A stretch of 58,495 nucleotides of DNA from assembly GCA_943354905.1 (NCBI GenBank), contig CALRDL010000004.1:1-58495 (forward strand), in the 5' to 3' direction. The notes under the pieces are model-generated. The model was not told the origin of the DNA and made no database searches. It worked only from the letters and a program-made list of their open reading frames with translations. A program made the position numbers and the translations under genes. Origin of the DNA: Candidatus Nomurabacteria bacterium. Lineage in GTDB: Bacteria; Patescibacteriota; Minisyncoccia; Phycocordibacterales; UBA9973. Shown one piece after another: positions 29,095-56,826 of the stretch (positions are counted from its first letter, which is position 1; every line of letters starts with the position of its first letter).

Positions 29095-29520
29095 ATGAGT
29101 AAAGGAATGAATAGAAATACAAATATCCGCACAATGAAATTGATCCGAGGAATTGGATCGGTTATCAACTGGAAAGATACTAAAAACAAGCAATTAATTG
29201 CTGGAATTTTAGCATTAAAAAATGCTGACGAAGCCAAGCGTTTTCTACGTGACCTTATGACCGAAAAAGAAATAAAAGAATTTGCGAACAGGCTCGAAGC
29301 CGCAACACTCCTTTCACAAAATGTGCAATACAACACCATCAGCGAAGACACAGGGCTTTCTTCTACTACAATTGCTCGTATTGCTAAATGGTTAGGTGGC
29401 TCGCTTGGTGGATATAGATTAATTTTGAATAGAATCATTCCCTCGAATAAACTCGGGACTTCCTCACGTCAGCATACTGCCTCTTCCAAAATTGGGAAAG
29501 GGTTGTATTTGAGTTCGTAA
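29095..29520 (+). CDS. TrpR/YerC-family repressor
   Basis: The 141-aa protein has the Trp_repressor fold: LALKNADEAKRFLRDLMTEKEIKEFANRLEAATLLSQNVQYNTISEDTGLSSTTIARIAKWLGG, with a helix-turn-helix at residues ~79-100. It is closer to the YerC/YecD branch than to classic TrpR and has a ~35-residue C-terminal extension. Its own promoter is covered by tandem ACTTTA-N6-TAAAGT palindromes, and an aromatic amino acid hydroxylase lies two genes downstream. A role in sensing an aromatic amino acid is therefore plausible but inferred. The mRNA appears leaderless. A 12-bp terminator follows. Confidence 0.88.
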   Translation: MSKGMNRNTNIRTMKLIRGIGSVINWKDTKNKQLIAGILALKNADEAKRFLRDLMTEKEIKEFANRLEAATLLSQNVQYNTISEDTGLSSTTIARIAKWLGGSLGGYRLILNRIIPSNKLGTSSRQHTASSKIGKGLYLSS

Positions 29521-36847: not shown

Positions 36848-36904
36848 GTGATTTTACGAAATCATACCGCGCAACGACAATTAAAGCGCGGTAATTGAAA
36901 AAGC

Positions 36905-37086
36905 AAAAATCGCCTCTTCAAACTTACCTTATTTGATAAATTTGCAGGGGCGATTCTTGCGCTTGTGGTGAGGCGCTATCGAACCACGGTGCCACCCTAC
37001 TTCGTCACGCTATAGCTCGGTTACGAGCAAAAGCGGATATCTCTTTTAAGCATCTCCAGCCTCCCCGTTGTCAATGGCTCAACAGC
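36905..37086 (-). ncRNA. T-box riboswitch leader of aspS
   Basis: On the minus strand the leader contains AGGGTGGCACCGTGG (36984-36998), the T-box core. Its UGGC would pair with GCCA, matching the G73 discriminator of tRNA-Asp. Upstream, AAGC...GCTT closes a short stem I-like hairpin whose loop holds GAC (37070-37072), a candidate Asp specifier. A GCTCG-TAAC-CGAGC hairpin sits between. Downstream, AATCGCC...GGCGATTTTT (36905-36955) is a terminator. Stem I is much shorter than the standard form, so the specifier is tentative. The leader fills the gap 36848-37125. Confidence 0.78.
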
Positions 37087-37092
37087 TTCTTT

Positions 37093-37708: not shown

Positions 37709-37744
37709 TAAAAAAGGCGGATCGTTATTTAGACAGACCCGCCT
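37709..37744 (-). terminator. Terminator after the ATP-grasp-like gene
   Basis: On the minus strand AGGCGG...CCGCCT encloses a GTC/GAT inner arm and is followed by six T, 25 bases after the gene's stop. Confidence 0.8.
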
Positions 37745-37769
37745 CTTTGTGCGTTGGCTAGACGTGATC

Positions 37770-38801
37770 TTAGCCGATATCCTCCTTCAAACCCACATGG
37801 TAGTTCACGACGCCATTACCACCGTGAACTGGCAGGTTTTTACTTGCCGTTACGGTAAGTTCGGCAAGCTTGCCATTCACAAGATGGACAGCCAGCCGAA
37901 TGAATCTGTCAGCATCTGCGAGTGGGAAGGTTTTTTGCTTTACATACTTCTGGACTACAGTTTCCTTCCCGATGGCATCGAAGTATACCCCTTTTGCCCC
38001 TGAAGAAAATACCTCTTTGGTTACGAACGGACCGTTGTAGGTCGGAGGGATGAACTTTTTCAATTCATCCAACTCCTCACTACTCATTGACCCATAGTTC
38101 TTAAAGAGATACTGATCAAGAAAAGGCAAAGCCATAACTGCCTTGCTTCCCAAGCCGTGACGAGGTGGGTTTATAAAACTATCAGGCCTCTCTTTCCAGC
38201 GAGAAAGAAGCATCCGAGATGCCTTTTCCCCGCAGAGTGGAAAGTCGAGAAAGATTCCATTCTCAGGAAACTTTTGTGCTTCGAGTTGTTCCTCTGAAAA
38301 CACCTTGACTCTTCGGCCAGTGAATTCCGTAAGCTTTTGAGCAAAATACTTCTGCTCGCGAGCGTAAAAACTTTCTTTACGTCCAAGAAAGATGTGAACG
38401 TCATCTGTAACGTACTGGGCGAGTAAAGTGAGCAACTTTTGACGTTCTCCTGCCCCACTTTCGTTGCGACAAGCGAGCGCAAAACCGAGACCATGCTTGT
38501 TGGAAGGATCAATTTCTGCGATCTTCCAATTACCATCCTTGTCAGCCATCACATCCACCCTTACCAACCTCGGAGGGATATGCAGGTGGGTAGTCCCAGC
38601 CTCCAGATAGGTTTCGTTAAGAGTTGCTGAGAGAGACTTGAGCAAAAATCCATCCTGAACTTCAGTGGTAGCGATGAGGAATTTGTTCACCAATTCCCCC
38701 ATTCTAGCCAATTTTACCAGATCCTCTCGAGTAATCCTAAACAAATGCTCATCCAAGATGAACTCATGGGGTTTAGAAACCAAATAATCCAAGTTTTTCA
38801 T
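37770..38801 (-). CDS. ATP-grasp-like protein under TrpR/attenuator control
   Basis: In this 343-aa soluble protein, RVDVMADKDGNWKIAEIDPSNKHGLGFAL and FINPPRHGLGSKAVMALPF resemble circularly permuted ATP-grasp ligases of the glutathionylspermidine-synthase type (R-x-D...D.dG...EiD; npp...gsKa). NGPFVTKEVFSSGAKGV could be an ATP-binding lysine and glycine-rich loop. The assignment is weak, and the substrate is unknown. The start is certain: GGGAGGGGG lies 6-7 nt upstream of the ATG. The gene is richer in G+C than its surroundings. It lies behind a ~240-nt leader with a Trp-Trp leader peptide and attenuator hairpins, so it is expected to be made when tryptophan is scarce. Confidence 0.6.
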   Translation of the reverse strand: MKNLDYLVSKPHEFILDEHLFRITREDLVKLARMGELVNKFLIATTEVQDGFLLKSLSATLNETYLEAGTTHLHIPPRLVRVDVMADKDGNWKIAEIDPSNKHGLGFALACRNESGAGERQKLLTLLAQYVTDDVHIFLGRKESFYAREQKYFAQKLTEFTGRRVKVFSEEQLEAQKFPENGIFLDFPLCGEKASRMLLSRWKERPDSFINPPRHGLGSKAVMALPFLDQYLFKNYGSMSSEELDELKKFIPPTYNGPFVTKEVFSSGAKGVYFDAIGKETVVQKYVKQKTFPLADADRFIRLAVHLVNGKLAELTVTASKNLPVHGGNGVVNYHVGLKEDIG

Positions 38802-38865
38802 TATTAACCCCCTCCCAGAGGCTTTTCAAAGAACAATCTTTCCGTTTCCTCTAGGAAACAAAGAA

Positions 38866-38881
38866 CGGCGCTCTTGCGCCG
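38866..38881 (-). terminator. Attenuator terminator (3:4 hairpin)
   Basis: CGGCGC-AAGA-GCGCCG followed by TTCTTTGTTT on the minus strand. Its 5' arm (CGGCGCAAGAG, 38871-38881) can instead pair over 11 positions, two of them G-U, with CTTTTGCGCTG (38927-38937), which overlaps the end of the leader peptide. Confidence 0.75.
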
Positions 38882-38917
38882 GTTAATGGATTCCTTGTTT
38901 TTAGGTAGAAAAAGAAA

Positions 38918-39001
38918 TCAACAGAACAGCGCAAAAGCCTTGTGCTCTACGCTCCACCAAGAATTTAATATTAATTTGTTTATTTTTAACTTATTCTTCA
39001 T
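38918..39001 (-). CDS. trp-type leader peptide with tandem Trp codons
   Basis: A 27-codon frame runs from ATG at 39001 to TGA ending at 38918. It starts MKNKLKINKLILNSWWSVEH, with Trp-Trp at positions 15-16 (38954-38959). Directly after the TGGTGG, AGCGTAGAG (38945-38953) can pair with TTTTGCGCT (38928-38936) as the 1:2 pause hairpin. Size, tandem Trp, and position before alternative hairpins copy the E. coli trpL design. No Shine-Dalgarno is visible before the ATG. Confidence 0.75.
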   Translation of the reverse strand: MKNKLKINKLILNSWWSVEHKAFALFC

Positions 39002-39036
39002 ATTTTTATAAATTCATACAAAATACTCTTGTATCT

Positions 39037-39050
39037 ATGTACTAGTACAT
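39037..39050. promoter_or_regulatory. TrpR-like operator palindrome, copy 1
   Basis: ATGTACTAGTACAT is a perfect 14-bp palindrome containing the GTACTAGT half-site known from E. coli trp operators. It overlaps the end of the -10 box and the expected transcription start of the attenuator-controlled gene. The extended 20-mer GTTATCATGTACTAGTACAT (minus) recurs at 55135-55154. Confidence 0.72.
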
Positions 39051-39077
39051 GATAACATAAACCAAAATAAAATGCAA
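39049..39077 (-). promoter_or_regulatory. Promoter of the Trp-attenuated gene
   Basis: Minus strand TTGCAT (39072-39077), exactly 17 bp, then TATCAT (39049-39054, five of six consensus bases). Transcription should start near 39042, inside the operator palindrome. Confidence 0.8.
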
Positions 39078-39116
39078 GTATTTTATTAGAGTAATGTGAA
39101 AAACTACTTTTAAGCC

Positions 39117-39413
39117 TTATTTTCCGAACTTTTTTAGCATTTGGTGAAATCCACCATCCTTATTTCGAAGCATTCGAGATCCGCGCGTGACAGTACTGAT
39201 GCCCAGACCCAAATCCCCTGCTACAGATCTATGAGTCTCTTTGTTATTTAATTTCTTTATTATTTGCCAACGCAATGCCAAATTTTCAATCTCATTTGGA
39301 GTAAACATATCTTTTAGAAAAAGTGCGATAAAATCTTTATCTGAATTTAATTTGGAAAAAACTTCTAATAATTCTTTTTTATATTCCGAAATTTTTTTAT
39401 TTATGTGTTTCAT
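39117..39413 (-). CDS. trpR: Trp repressor
   Basis: The 98-aa protein matches classic TrpR over its length: LFLKDMFTPNEIENLALRWQIIKKLNNKETHRSVAGDLGLGISTVTRGSRMLR. The helix-turn-helix is at ~59-82, close to E. coli's [20 protein letters not shown]. It should bind DNA as a dimer with L-Trp as corepressor. A perfect GTACTAGT-containing palindrome lies 67 bp beyond its 3' end at the promoter of the next gene, the obvious target. TATACT is 5 nt before its ATG, so the mRNA is nearly or fully leaderless. Confidence 0.9.
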   Translation of the reverse strand: MKHINKKISEYKKELLEVFSKLNSDKDFIALFLKDMFTPNEIENLALRWQIIKKLNNKETHRSVAGDLGLGISTVTRGSRMLRNKDGGFHQMLKKFGK

Positions 39414-39443: not shown

Positions 39444-39959
39444 CTACCACTTACTTGGCATTTGTATATCATAACAAAAATCAAAATCTTGAGAAAGATC
39501 CTGGTGATTTTTTAAAATATAAGGAATATTACGAACCCTAGAATTAGGATATATACCTACAATTTTTTTATTTTGATCAGCAACTACAATTATAGAGGAC
39601 TTTCCGGATTCAACTTCTTCCCCCATTAAACCGTAAGCATCGGCACCTACCTCTCCACTAACATTATCAGCAGATAACCAACCACCCATACAAGCAATCA
39701 ATACACCACTCATACCACAATCTTCAAGTGCACAGTAACTCATATACTTTTCCATAGCGTATACATAAAACTTATATTCCAAAGTGTACAGATGTTCATA
39801 CTCTACAACATTTTCTGAAACAATGGGAGCTTGATCTCCTAATTTTAATGGACCAAAAGATTTGACTGAACGTGGTGAAGAAAAAAATAAAACACAAACA
39901 AAAAATAATATGATAATGCATGTACTAACTATTATTTTTATAATATATTTTTTAGTCAT
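39444..39959 (-). CDS. Membrane-anchored protein of unknown function
   Basis: The 171-aa protein has one N-terminal TM/signal anchor (residues ~7-27) and an extracytoplasmic domain. Notable pieces are YMSYCALEDCGMSGVLIACMGGWL, a Cys-rich segment (three Cys), and a terminal YDIQMPSKW. The order trpS, this gene, trpR on one strand suggests co-location in a tryptophan region, but nothing in the protein shows a link to tryptophan. I do not recognise the family. Confidence 0.6.
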   Translation of the reverse strand: MTKKYIIKIIVSTCIIILFFVCVLFFSSPRSVKSFGPLKLGDQAPIVSENVVEYEHLYTLEYKFYVYAMEKYMSYCALEDCGMSGVLIACMGGWLSADNVSGEVGADAYGLMGEEVESGKSSIIVVADQNKKIVGIYPNSRVRNIPYILKNHQDLSQDFDFCYDIQMPSKW

Positions 39960-40005: not shown

Positions 40006-40956
40006 TTAATACACATCTACTCCTATTTTCTCTCTAACTTCTTTCATTTTAGCTGAGGCGACGGCTTTGGCGCGCTCGCCACCTGCGTTCAGGATGGCGA
40101 GCGCGCCGTCTATATCTTTCTCATATTCTTTCCTCTTTTCCCGCAGTGGCGCGATAAATTTTTCCAAATCTTCGATCAATAATTCTTTTAATTCTTTATA
40201 CTTACCTGCTTTTTCTTCATAAATTTTTTTTAATTCTTCTTCGGGGCGCAAAAGTTTGTGAATTGCAAAAACATTTTCTGGAATTCCTCCGCTTGAATCC
40301 GTGACAATACTCATCACCGATGATTTTATTTCTTCGTATTCTGCAAAAAGTGGAATAGTGTTTCCATAACTCTTGCTCATCTTGCGTCCGTCTGTACCCG
40401 GGACTACTGCGACTTCTTCCATAATCATTTCTTTTGGTAATTTAAAAGTCTGGCCAAATGTATTGTTGAATTTTTCGGCTGTATCTCGAGCGATTTCTAT
40501 GTGTTGTTTCTGGTCTTGTCCTACTGGCACTATATCAACATCATAGAGTAATATATCAGCAGCCATTAAAAGAGGATAATTAAAAAGTCCGACATTCATA
40601 TCTTTGCCATTATCTCTTGCATCTTTGTAAGCAACAGAACGCTCTAGATAAGCCATAGGGGTTATAGTATCGAAAATCCATGCGAGTTCTGTATGCTCTG
40701 ATACATCAGACTGCTTGAATACAATAGATTTTTTAGGGTCAAGACCTAATGCTAAATAATCAATCAAAACAGCAATGATGTTTTCTTTCATGATTTTAGA
40801 ATTTTTTAAGGAGGTCATGGCATGATAGTCGACAATCATAAAATAAACGTCGTTATCATTTTGTTGGCTTATAAGCTGTTTCATCATTCCGAAATAATTC
40901 CCGATATGGGGTTTACCGGACGGCTGAATACCAGATAATAAGACTTTTTTAGACAT
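40006..40956 (-). CDS. trpS: Tryptophanyl-tRNA synthetase
   Basis: The 316-aa class I synthetase has GIQPSGKPHIGNYFGMMKQ (HIGH-type HIGN) and KMSKSYGN, with DIVPVGQDQKQHIEIARDTAEKFN between. The length is normal for TrpRS. TAATAT (40963-40968, minus) is 6 nt before the ATG, so it is predicted leaderless. No TrpR-type palindrome is seen at its promoter. Near the 3' end a GC-rich 13-bp perfect inverted repeat (40069-40081/40095-40107) lies inside the coding region at residues GALAILNAGGERA. Confidence 0.95.
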   Translation of the reverse strand: MSKKVLLSGIQPSGKPHIGNYFGMMKQLISQQNDNDVYFMIVDYHAMTSLKNSKIMKENIIAVLIDYLALGLDPKKSIVFKQSDVSEHTELAWIFDTITPMAYLERSVAYKDARDNGKDMNVGLFNYPLLMAADILLYDVDIVPVGQDQKQHIEIARDTAEKFNNTFGQTFKLPKEMIMEEVAVVPGTDGRKMSKSYGNTIPLFAEYEEIKSSVMSIVTDSSGGIPENVFAIHKLLRPEEELKKIYEEKAGKYKELKELLIEDLEKFIAPLREKRKEYEKDIDGALAILNAGGERAKAVASAKMKEVREKIGVDVY

Positions 40957-53352: not shown

Positions 53353-55158
53353 CTAATAAACCTCCTGCTGGTAACATTTTTCACAGTAAATTATCTCAGG
53401 GTAATCAGGAGAATATCCGGTTTTAAATTTTTCTTCACAAGGTTTATCACCATGAAAATGTCTTACTGTATTTTTATATATTTCTGTGGTATCATTTTGC
53501 CCGACACACATGCAAAACCTGTCATATAAATGTAGTGTGAGCCTGTCCCTAATCCTACGTTCATGTCTACACTCATTGCACATTGTTGGAATGGGAATTT
53601 TTTCATTACGTAAAAAAATTAATTCATTTTCTAGTACTCGATAGGGCTTTTTACATTTTCCACATTCAATAACTTCCTCTAAAATTTGATCCATTGCATT
53701 AGTGATTAAATTTGGAATTTCTGACGCTTTTATTGTTATTTTATATTCTCCCCGAAAAGCTTCAATCCAGCCATAACTTTTCGCTCCAGCTTCTTCTTTT
53801 GTAATTGGAAAATGCTCTATGGCAACAGTATTGTTGTACCCAAATGGTGAAAACTCTATCGGAAAAAACTCCCCATATTTATAAATAATACCCTGCGAAT
53901 CAACATACGGCATTTCGTCCATATGTTTTTTTATTTTAGGAACAAGAACTTCGTAATCTTCTTTTGTATATTGTTTATTAAAAATGCAATATTGTTTTTT
54001 CTTTAACCCAGAACAACCAAAACAGTCGGAGGAACTAAATAAATTGATACAATACTCATTGTTTATGCAGGCAGGCCAGCAATTTTTAGAAAATTTATTA
54101 TTATAAGAATTATCCCCGCACTCTATTGTTTCATAGCAAAGTTCAGTGTTGGCTCCCCAAACAGAAACATCGTAGTTGTCTGTACTACTTGGATTTTCAT
54201 CTATGTATTGACAAAAACGCATATCTTCACATTCTCTGACTAAATAACTATCATTTACATTTTTTGAGTCTGTGACGTAAGAACCAGTTGAGTTTAAATT
54301 TTTTACTCCTTGCTGGTGTCTAGTTATTTGAGTTTGCCAAAATTTTCTGGTTTTTTCCCGTGCTTCTTTTATGCCTTGTATAGTATCTAACTTTAATTTT
54401 TTTATTTCTTTCTCATATTCTTCTTTTGTATACTGTTTGTTAAAAATACAGTATGAAGATTGTCTTAAATTTACACAACCAAAACAATCATTACAACCTC
54501 CACAGTCTCTGCAAAAATACATATTTCTAGAATCCCAAGACATTATTGTAAAATAACACTGATAGCAATTTCTAACCCAAAAACATTCGTAACATCTTTC
54601 TGATTGTTTCATATGTGAATTATCCACGCAATCTTTTGAATGATTTACTGAATTCCCATACATGCAATCTTCAGAAAAACTCGAGTTAACAATAAGGTAA
54701 CAATTCTTTAATCCTTGAGCATTGAAAGAGTAGGGACTGTTTATCATTCTACTTATATTAAAACTGAACACAGGAATTTTTTTATCAAGTACAATTAGTT
54801 GTTCTAAAAATGACCTAGAAAAATCATAATCTTGCTGATATTCCATCGCGTCCCAACTATCTCCATTCCATTCTTCTCGAGTTATAATTTTCCTTCCACT
54901 TTCTTGTGGATAAGTCGAAAGAATTTCTTTACCAGTAAAATGATTCAGAACTCTAAAGAGTTTGCGTTCATTTCTGAAAGCAAACCTCCTCTGCGCCCTA
55001 CAGAAAGGACAAAAAGTCGGAGGAGGAACTTTTATCTTTTCATAAAAATTAAAATCTTCCGTTTCGATAACAAAATCTTTCTTACAATTCTGGCATATTC
55101 TGTTTTCATTTTTGTTTTCCATATTTCTATACTCATGTACTAGTACATGATAACGCAT
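53353..55158 (-). CDS. Zinc-ribbon multidomain protein (YCEKCYQQEVY family), copy C
   Basis: The 601-aa protein is the longest member: ICQNCKKDFVIETEDFNFYEKIKVPPPTFCPFCRAQRRF, QQDYDFSRSFLEQL, cysteine pairs along the centre (CYECFWVRNCYQC, CRDCGGCNDCFGC), two YCIFNKQYTKEEYE units, a C-terminal CGKCKKPYRVL...PTMCNECRHERR ribbon pair and the common tail. ATG 55158 directly follows the TAG of copy D, with AGGAGGTG 6 nt upstream inside that gene's last codons, favouring coupled translation. The homologous start is ATG 55122. A TrpR-like palindrome lies between the two starts. Confidence 0.78.
   Translation of the reverse strand: MRYHVLVHEYRNMENKNENRICQNCKKDFVIETEDFNFYEKIKVPPPTFCPFCRAQRRFAFRNERKLFRVLNHFTGKEILSTYPQESGRKIITREEWNGDSWDAMEYQQDYDFSRSFLEQLIVLDKKIPVFSFNISRMINSPYSFNAQGLKNCYLIVNSSFSEDCMYGNSVNHSKDCVDNSHMKQSERCYECFWVRNCYQCYFTIMSWDSRNMYFCRDCGGCNDCFGCVNLRQSSYCIFNKQYTKEEYEKEIKKLKLDTIQGIKEAREKTRKFWQTQITRHQQGVKNLNSTGSYVTDSKNVNDSYLVRECEDMRFCQYIDENPSSTDNYDVSVWGANTELCYETIECGDNSYNNKFSKNCWPACINNEYCINLFSSSDCFGCSGLKKKQYCIFNKQYTKEDYEVLVPKIKKHMDEMPYVDSQGIIYKYGEFFPIEFSPFGYNNTVAIEHFPITKEEAGAKSYGWIEAFRGEYKITIKASEIPNLITNAMDQILEEVIECGKCKKPYRVLENELIFLRNEKIPIPTMCNECRHERRIRDRLTLHLYDRFCMCVGQNDTTEIYKNTVRHFHGDKPCEEKFKTGYSPDYPEIIYCEKCYQQEVY
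55137..55154. promoter_or_regulatory. TrpR-like operator palindrome, copy 2
   Basis: TCATGTACTAGTACATGA is a perfect 18-bp palindrome. The minus-strand 20-mer GTTATCATGTACTAGTACAT is identical to the attenuator-promoter region. No -35 box is evident at this copy. Confidence 0.55.
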
Positions 55159-56826
55159 CTAATACACCTCCTGCTGATAACATTTTTCACAGTACACTAT
55201 CTCAGGTCGGTCGGGGGAATAATTTGTAGTTATAGCTTTGTAGCATTTTGCACAATTCCTCTGCCAAAATTTAAATGGCCCACGTTTTTCTATTCTGTCT
55301 TGATGTCGGCAATAAAAACACTTCCGGGGTATCGGTATGTTCATTTTTTTATAAAAAGATAGCTCTTGGTCAGTGATTTTATAATTCCTATTACAAAAGA
55401 CACAAGCCAAAACTTCTTTTATTATAGAATCTTCTACATCCTTTATATGATCTGGAATATTTTCTGAATTTATTGTCCCATTCCCTTCTGTCTTTTGTAT
55501 ATCATCTTCCCATCTAAAACCCTGTGCTAATGCTTCGTCTTTGGTTATGGGAAAATTGTCTTGAGCAATTGTCTCATTGTATGCAAAAAGTGCGATCACC
55601 TCCGGCATCATGAGTCCGTACAAATCTTTTTCCGTAAGTTCTTTGATTATTATTTCTCGAAGTCTTTCGTATTCTTCTTTTGGATATTGTTTATTTAAAA
55701 TCGAATATTCACCGTGATGCAATGCATCGCAACCTATACAATTTTTACAATTTCTAATACAAAATCCATACAAAATATCACTACAATTTTCCGCACCATA
55801 AGTCCCGACAATATTACTCGAAAGACCAGTAGCCACGACCTCGAGCATTTTTTCTGATTTAAGCCCATGACCGATCACCCCCATAGAATCTTTTATCATC
55901 TTAGAAGAATAAATATACTTACAATCTTCACCCTTGATCACTTCAAAAGAATTGCTTACATTTTTACATTCAAATAAATAATCCCCTGTCGAATCTATAG
56001 TCTTTAAATTATTATTTTCACGAACAGGAAACTGTAACGCAAAACTTTCAAATTCCTTTTTAAATTCTTGTATTTTTTGATAAGATCCAAGTATTTCTCC
56101 CACTTTTTTCTTGTATTCTTCTTTATTCATGTGCTGATTCAAAAAGTGATAGGATTTATTGTTTAAATTCACACAACCAAAACAATTTATCGAACCTTTG
56201 CAATTTAAAACAAAAGCTGAATCTATCGAACTAGAGATATTTTGACCGAAGAGGATGCCTGAAGATTGCTCAACATTTATGGATTCATAGCATCTCTCAA
56301 AGTCTTGTCCAAAATACATATCAGCAGAATCTCTAGAATTTCTAACTCCTCTAGAATACATAGTATCTTCAGAAGACATGGTGTTAAAAACCAAATAGCA
56401 ATTCCTACAACCGCCGGCCATATTTACGTATTCACTATTTATATTTGGACCAATACTGCTAGATAAATAAGTGGTAATCTTTGGAACTTTAATAAAAAGT
56501 TCTTTGACTTGTTCCAAAAAAGATCTACTCTCATTGTAATCCATAGCATAATCTTTCGGATCCCATTTTTCAGAATAAAAACAATCGTGGCAATAGATAG
56601 TGTATGGGGGTTTTGGATTATACATAGAGATTACTCCTTTGCCACACAGTCCGCATTTTCGCCCAGAATAAAGAGTAGTTTCATTTCGAAACATAGCCCG
56701 CATTTTAAAACGACAATCCGGACAGACTTTTGGAGCTGGCACTTTCATCTTTTCATAAAAACCTAGCTCATTCTGATCGAGAATAAATTCTTGGTTGCAT
56801 TTTTGACAAGCTTGCTTTGTTTCCAT
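55159..56826 (-). CDS. Zinc-ribbon multidomain protein (YCEKCYQQEVY family), copy D
   Basis: The 555-aa protein is the most divergent member. Its first ribbon is CQKCNQEFILDQNELGFYEKMKVPAPKVCPDCRFKMR, then an extra CGLCGKGV pair and YTIYCHDCFYSEKWDPKDYAMDYNESRSFLEQV. The centre has fewer cysteines, and the C-terminal pair is CVFCNRNYKIT...RKCFYCRHQDR before CEKCYQQEVY. Its ATG directly follows the ABC transporter stop (TAAA ATG), and its own stop abuts copy C, so at least these genes form one transcription unit with the transporter. Confidence 0.78.
   Translation of the reverse strand: METKQACQKCNQEFILDQNELGFYEKMKVPAPKVCPDCRFKMRAMFRNETTLYSGRKCGLCGKGVISMYNPKPPYTIYCHDCFYSEKWDPKDYAMDYNESRSFLEQVKELFIKVPKITTYLSSSIGPNINSEYVNMAGGCRNCYLVFNTMSSEDTMYSRGVRNSRDSADMYFGQDFERCYESINVEQSSGILFGQNISSSIDSAFVLNCKGSINCFGCVNLNNKSYHFLNQHMNKEEYKKKVGEILGSYQKIQEFKKEFESFALQFPVRENNNLKTIDSTGDYLFECKNVSNSFEVIKGEDCKYIYSSKMIKDSMGVIGHGLKSEKMLEVVATGLSSNIVGTYGAENCSDILYGFCIRNCKNCIGCDALHHGEYSILNKQYPKEEYERLREIIIKELTEKDLYGLMMPEVIALFAYNETIAQDNFPITKDEALAQGFRWEDDIQKTEGNGTINSENIPDHIKDVEDSIIKEVLACVFCNRNYKITDQELSFYKKMNIPIPRKCFYCRHQDRIEKRGPFKFWQRNCAKCYKAITTNYSPDRPEIVYCEKCYQQEVY

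Follow-up and report, generated by a model that had tools for sequence, protein, structure and literature searches.

A predicted TrpR-linked tryptophan attenuator ahead of exchangeable genes in Candidatus Nomurabacteria

Organization of the locus

The window analyzed here, a stretch of 58,495 nucleotides from a Candidatus Nomurabacteria genome, carries on its minus strand, in this order, trpS, a 171-aa ORF, trpR, a promoter with an overlapping operator, a 27-codon leader, the attenuator segments 1 to 4 and a downstream gene that we call the cargo. The trpS gene (40006-40956) encodes a tryptophanyl-tRNA synthetase of 316 aa (TIGR00233, 5.3e-86, above cut-off) and is a conserved upstream neighbor, the order trpS-trpR being common to most relatives. 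The 171-aa ORF (39444-39959, minus strand) has a hydrophobic N-terminal stretch and matched no Pfam or NCBIfam family; most relatives have no ORF at this place, trpR coming straight after trpS. The trpR gene (39117-39413) encodes a Trp repressor family protein of 98 aa (PF01371, 7.6e-18; PDB TrpR, 2.3e-6).

Downstream of trpR, the elements named in the original prediction were all found on the minus strand. A sigma-70-like promoter, TTGCAT-N17-TATCAT (39049-39077), consists of a -35 box at 39077-39072, a spacer of 17 nt and a -10 box at 39054-39049; as trpR ends at 39117, the -10 box lies about 60 bp downstream of it. The palindrome ATGTACTAGTACAT (39037-39050), a putative TrpR operator, overlaps the -10/+1 region, and the leader peptide ORF MKNKLKINKLILNSWWSVEHKAFALFC (38918-39001) has tandem Trp codons at positions 15-16 (38959-38954). 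The segments for three alternative pairings are likewise present: segment 1 (AGCGTAGAG, 38945-38953), segment 2 (CTTTTGCGCTG, 38927-38937), which can pair with 1 or with 3, and segments 3 (38881-38871) and 4 (38871-38866), which together form the terminator hairpin CGGCGC-AAGA-GCGCCG (38866-38881), followed by the T-rich tail TTCTTTGTTT (38865-38856).

The predicted anatomy nevertheless had to be amended. The leader frame reads on through segment 2 to a stop codon 6 nt beyond it, its Shine-Dalgarno sequence is weak, the U-run behind 3:4 is imperfect, and an additional conserved helix, here called the spacer helix, lies between segments 2 and 3 (5' strand GATTTCTT, 38912-38919; 3' strand AAGGAATC, 38896-38889). 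The cargo gene (37770-38801, 343 aa) has its Shine-Dalgarno sequence and start at 38816-38801. At the predicted end of the transcript (37714-37775, minus strand), a pseudoknot-like motif spans the cargo stop codon (GGCTA...CGT CT AGCC A ACG) and is followed by a terminator hairpin; it is similar to the tail motif found in L031 and other relatives and is tentative, since its second helix has only 3 bp here.

Conservation of the leader in related genomes

The single-sequence folding of the window leader was not exceptional (z = -1.9), and a crude single-sequence pattern scan also picked up look-alikes; as neither is decisive, the reality of the attenuator has to be judged from relatives. The genomes compared are metagenome assemblies, and their placement in the Nomurabacteria rests on named orthologous loci; those relatives that have names belong to Candidatus Nomurabacteria and to other Patescibacteria, in line with the CPR origin that had been proposed from the window alone. 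A covariance model, R1, built from 23 leaders (alignment A2), matched a leader in 35 of the 80 genomes of the genus. The window leader was matched with an E-value of 2.9e-20 and, at 109 bits against the family model, scored as well as leaders ahead of trpB or trpE, and most trpR genes of relatives are followed by an ACTAGT-type palindrome, a short leader with Trp codons and a terminator. Rfam includes a trp leader family; no match to the window leader at gathering score was found among its 4227 models. More distant versions of the leader (L057 and, in Harrisonbacteria, L059) are too diverged for safe alignment, and in L064, L102 and L103 the layout is unchanged although most of the stem sequence differs. 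Outside the genus, R1 gave only two weak matches in a broad phylum sample (L112, L113), which were not leader-like on inspection, and antisense R1 matches were set aside as echoes of inverted repeats.

The regulatory codons are strongly conserved, the first more so than the second. All 35 leaders of the alignment have the first UGG, whereas UGG is the second codon in 27 of them and a Phe, Tyr or Arg codon takes its place in the rest, so that the expected conservation of the Trp codons holds in full for the first and for the most part for the second. A short frame with an ATG was present in those leaders that were examined, with the Trp codons just before segment 1. In some relatives there is a single Trp codon, or the operator remains where the attenuator is gone. 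Leaders of the same family also occur with no trpR or operator upstream, in L098 (43-153 and 1123-1228), L108 and L110, with Trp-Phe or Trp-Tyr-Tyr as regulatory codons (SYWFS, NYWFS, FWYYT), a possible drift toward general aromatic sensing.

Covariation and predicted folding

Covariation was assessed in two alignments, A2, made with MAFFT and without structure, and A6, which comprises 35 leaders and was fitted to the 1:2, spacer and 3:4 structure. For these three helices together, 92.4% of cells were paired in A6 against 41-51% in slid controls, and double changes were seen in 61 cells, compared with 17.4 in shuffles (0/500), in an alignment that leans toward these very helices; the structure-free A2 gave 29 double-changed cells against 11.7 (0/500). 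Taken singly, 1:2 was paired in 90.4% of cells, the spacer helix in 95% and 3:4 in 92.1%, with four, three and five pairs, respectively, changed on both sides. As the shuffles keep shared ancestry, these figures are strong but are not probabilities.

The 2:3 pairing was not used in fitting A6. It was paired in 87.5% of cells against 32-58% in slid controls, a value that did not exceed the shuffles (270/500), and it had 16 double-changed cells against 8.2 (17/500); in A2, 2:3 and the spacer helix counted together gave 14 against 6.7 (13/500). The support for 2:3 is thus weaker than that for the other helices but real. Since segments 2 and 3 each take part in two pairings, the clearest signal is the four-way one: at alignment columns 13-56-146-164 all three pairings are kept in 27 of the 35 leaders, against a mean of 18.5 and a maximum of 24 in 2000 shuffles, while the letters at the other four such positions are too invariant to tell. 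The call for covariation across related leaders was therefore answered far beyond shuffles for 1:2 and 3:4 and more weakly for 2:3.

Folding of the window leader with ViennaRNA gave alternative pairings according to which segment was masked. With segment 1 masked, as by a ribosome on the Trp codons, the probability of 2:3 was 0.98-0.99 and that of 3:4 was 0; with segment 2 masked, as by a ribosome at the stop codon, 3:4 reached 0.97. Without a ribosome, equilibrium favored 2:3 (0.71-0.95; helix energies of -9.9, -15.6 and -10.8 kcal/mol for 1:2, 2:3 and 3:4), and default termination would thus rest on kinetics, with 1:2 forming first, or on the position of the ribosome.

TrpR and its putative operator

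The "classic" trpR gene of the original prediction proved to be a clear family member, with 64.8 bits against PF01371 (gathering score 27), that remains below the curated cut-off of the TrpR equivalog TIGR01321 (NCBIfam; 54.4 bits against 67.25); at 30.8 bits against YerC/YecD it is nearer to TrpR than to that family. Of the related genomes searched, about one in three has an orthologue. A further search gave 37 named loci, which belong mostly to Candidatus Nomurabacteria and in a few cases to Harrison-, Uhr-, Peregrini- and Gottesmanbacteria, and residues T38, R48, R77 and G78 are invariant across 15 orthologues. A second, weak TrpR-family match lies at 29173-29433 on the plus strand (25 bits, about 25% identical, in a 144-aa open frame), and such second copies are present in several related genomes.

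An ACTAGT-type palindrome adjoins trpR in nearly all relatives, and in the 750-kb genome the 14-nt palindrome ATGTACTAGTACAT has exactly two copies. The type of palindrome tracks the recognition helix of TrpR in relatives, namely TGTACTAGTACA with GLGIST, TGCACTAGTGCA with GLGMST (two cases) and CATACTAGTATG with an HLGVAT-type helix. Through this joint change, palindrome and TrpR can be connected without recourse to the E. coli rule, and the palindromes are probably TrpR operators. GTACTAGTAC is also the central part of the E. coli TrpR half-site that structural studies have used.

The second exact copy (TATCATGTACTAGTACAT, 55135-55148, minus strand), found by exact 14-mer search, lies between the ORFs 55159-56826 and 53353-55158, which are tandem Cys-rich, treble-clef-like paralogues. 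Because an operator is placed in the same way between the paralogues of three related genomes (L135, L136, L151), this site may be a second conserved TrpR target.

Genes behind the leader

Cargoes were counted behind 37 leaders, the 35 of A6 plus L102 and L103, some members of the cargo families being assigned by BLAST cluster only. Tryptophan biosynthesis genes stand behind 11 of the 37, with trpE in L032, L041, L054 and L105 and trpB in L036, L042, L050, L051, L056, L064 and L065; trpA, trpG and trpC were also found behind leaders. TrpA is encoded in 3 of the 80 genomes of the genus, and all three copies lie directly behind a leader. No TrpA was found in the window genome, which is 96% complete, and the organism is probably a tryptophan auxotroph. 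The cargo differs in almost every genome and includes a PRPP synthetase, an Asp/Glu racemase, an AstE/AspA-like hydrolase, a protein with a tRNA-Thr editing domain, a protein called PPDK-like on the basis of its sequence alone, and small unknown ORFs.

The 343-aa cargo protein of the window had no sequence match in Pfam, NCBIfam or PDB and, as had been proposed, is not a known tryptophan biosynthesis enzyme. Its ATP-grasp-like character, also proposed at the outset, is visible by eye in two motifs only, K..SSG.KG and Q.YV, and found no counterpart in those family searches; a PDB match obtained from cargo profiles was at chance level and was discarded. The protein is possibly an ATP-grasp enzyme. 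In 297 genomes of its order this orphan had a single distant match, and no close relatives were found in viral contigs or named genomes. Distant homologues are known from L002, L115 and L116, and a profile search added further ones in whole genomes. Behind the homologue of L116/L120, from another Patescibacteria family, come genes for a histidine phosphatase and a tryptophanyl-tRNA synthetase, and the window cargo also precedes a histidine phosphatase gene, beyond a terminator. The proximity of a homologue to a tryptophanyl-tRNA synthetase gene hints at a tryptophan-connected role of the cargo.

Other RNA elements

Trp-rich mini-ORFs of 3-14 codons lie downstream of the leader or the cargo in L030, L031, L043, L046, L049, L052, L053, L106, L110, L121 and L125, encoding MWW, MGWDVDWW, MLWDPEWR, MSMAWNIDEDWF and other peptides. 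Most have a near-perfect Shine-Dalgarno sequence (AAGGAGGTGAT), and a pseudoknot-like GGGCC..CGG.TTGGCCCACCG and a terminator usually come next. The mini-ORF pattern was matched 10 times in 124 kb, compared with no match for the reverse strand and a single one in 187 kb of upstream sequence, and the combined element had no match in Rfam. Possible roles are a second sensor of starvation or a gene for a peptide. We dropped the idea that the tail pseudoknot is specific to tryptophan, as other operon ends carry it too, for instance with a Tyr version of the mini-ORF (MYEY) in G300.

Two further elements were observed. Upstream of aspS, a candidate T-box (36897-37091, minus strand) has a AGGGTGGCACCG motif followed by a terminator hairpin; its UGGC would fit a tRNA with a discriminator G such as tRNA-Asp, and its score against the Rfam T-box is 10.8 bits, far below the cut-off of 93. 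In L029, L041, L044 and L105, a recurring GTTTGTGAAAACT...AAAATTCTCAGGTGCNG-ATCTACC...GTGATTC stretch lies just past the leader terminator and before the cargo; it had no Rfam match and is possibly another RNA element.

Discussion

Comparison with related genomes confirmed, at the level of sequence, the observation of a trp-type switch with all its parts, and the proposed reading as a trp-type attenuator with a TrpR operator is borne out by conserved leaders, covariation and the joint change of palindrome and recognition helix. We consider it very likely that the locus is a two-layer tryptophan-starvation switch, consisting of TrpR and a ribosome-mediated attenuator, that originated on trp genes and now has an exchangeable cargo. 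In the first layer, tryptophan-loaded TrpR would bind ATGTACTAGTACAT over the -10/+1 region and block the leader promoter, at which transcription would start, and low tryptophan would lift this repression. In the second, scarcity of charged Trp-tRNA would stall the ribosome on the UGG-UGG codons, where it covers segment 1, so that 2:3 would pair, the 3:4 terminator would be prevented and the polymerase would read into the cargo. With ample tryptophan, the ribosome would reach the stop codon just past segment 2 and cover that segment, whereupon 3:4 would form and terminate transcription. The switch would most likely have been born on tryptophan biosynthesis genes, been retained after their loss and come to drive one cargo after another.

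The same variability of the cargo could mean that the leader is a relic, which once controlled trp genes and is now irrelevant, its cargo having been swapped in by chance. The window genome is without TrpA, as noted above, and the leaders of the relatives L035, L034, L037 and L053 are degraded or lost. In the window itself, however, nothing is missing from the promoter, the operator, the pair of Trp codons or the three pairings, the leader scores as well as those that precede trpB or trpE, and the genome retains another exact operator at a second site, which makes such a decayed state unlikely here. A different objection concerns the level of control, since the imperfect U-run of the window (TTCTTTGTTT) might suit a leader that hides or exposes the cargo start codon and so regulates translation instead of transcription. 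We regard this as very unlikely, because the cargo start and its Shine-Dalgarno sequence lie about 50 nt past 3:4, outside the conserved pairings, and the T-run directly behind 3:4 is longer in most relatives. That the hairpins are a mere trpS-trpR terminator beside an accidental short ORF is hardly credible, even though 3:4, with its T-rich tail, follows the trpR stop at a distance of about 240 nt, given a promoter and operator between trpR and the hairpin, a Trp codon invariant in 35 leaders, covariation among segments 1, 2 and 3 that a simple terminator would not need, and five leaders with no upstream trpR (two in L098, and L106, L108 and L110).

The logic of the proposed two-layer switch is known. 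In E. coli, TrpR and TrpL control trpEDCBA (PMC7755916). As the original prediction held, the window shares with that system the combination of repression, a leader peptide with tandem Trp codons, the 1:2, 2:3 and 3:4 alternatives and an intrinsic terminator, whereas the leader has no sequence relation to trpL, as judged from the lack of an Rfam match, and the cargo is not tryptophan biosynthesis. The E. coli trp leader frame stops between segments 1 and 2, while that of the window continues through segment 2 and is followed by the extra helix between 2 and 3; the window operator is the short overlapping palindrome GTACTAGTAC, and trpR adjoins the leader. In Corynebacterium and Streptomyces, leader peptides with UGG repeats precede trp operons, and actinobacterial attenuators are in some species also found upstream of trpS, according to the excerpts available of PMC1262725, which do not describe TrpR for these attenuators. 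The leader peptides with UGG codons are common to both groups, but the actinobacterial sequences are different, belong to another phylum and head trp operons or trpS, whereas mostly other genes follow here. The LEU element of Actinobacteria, a short ORF with regulatory codons and a pseudoknot preceding leuA (PMC1262725), resembles the Trp mini-ORFs in combining a short ORF with a pseudoknot, while the mini-ORFs stand at operon ends before a terminator. A further comparison is with the trpR-IGR-trpBA locus of Chlamydia trachomatis, where the existence of a cis-acting trpL is in doubt and attenuation is carried out in trans by YtgR, which has a WWW motif (PMC7755916). There, too, trpR adjoins the controlled genes of a host-dependent bacterium with a reduced genome and tandem Trp codons sense starvation, but the window has what appears to be a full cis attenuator.

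In the open-access literature searched we found no published Patescibacteria attenuator of the trpL/TrpR kind, which is not proof of absence. What appears to be new is the phylum, the anatomy of the leader and a cargo that is usually not tryptophan biosynthesis. In a wider, plausible but tentative reading, the attenuator has become a general tryptophan-starvation switch of auxotrophic Nomurabacteria, with a fixed trpS-trpR-operator-leader module and lineage-specific cargo, to which the Trp-Phe and Trp-Tyr-Tyr leaders and, as a second tryptophan-sensing element, the mini-ORF/pseudoknot at operon ends would also belong.

Together, these results would extend ribosome-mediated attenuation with TrpR to the Patescibacteria, whose genomes are minimal, which are mostly uncultured and from which most amino acid pathways are absent, and they suggest that control of the trpL/TrpR kind can outlive the pathway it once served. 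If the cargo is switched on by tryptophan shortage, the module points to unknown genes of host-dependent bacteria. The leader may thus flag genes that are used when the host supplies too little tryptophan, and a covariance model such as R1 would let others find them.
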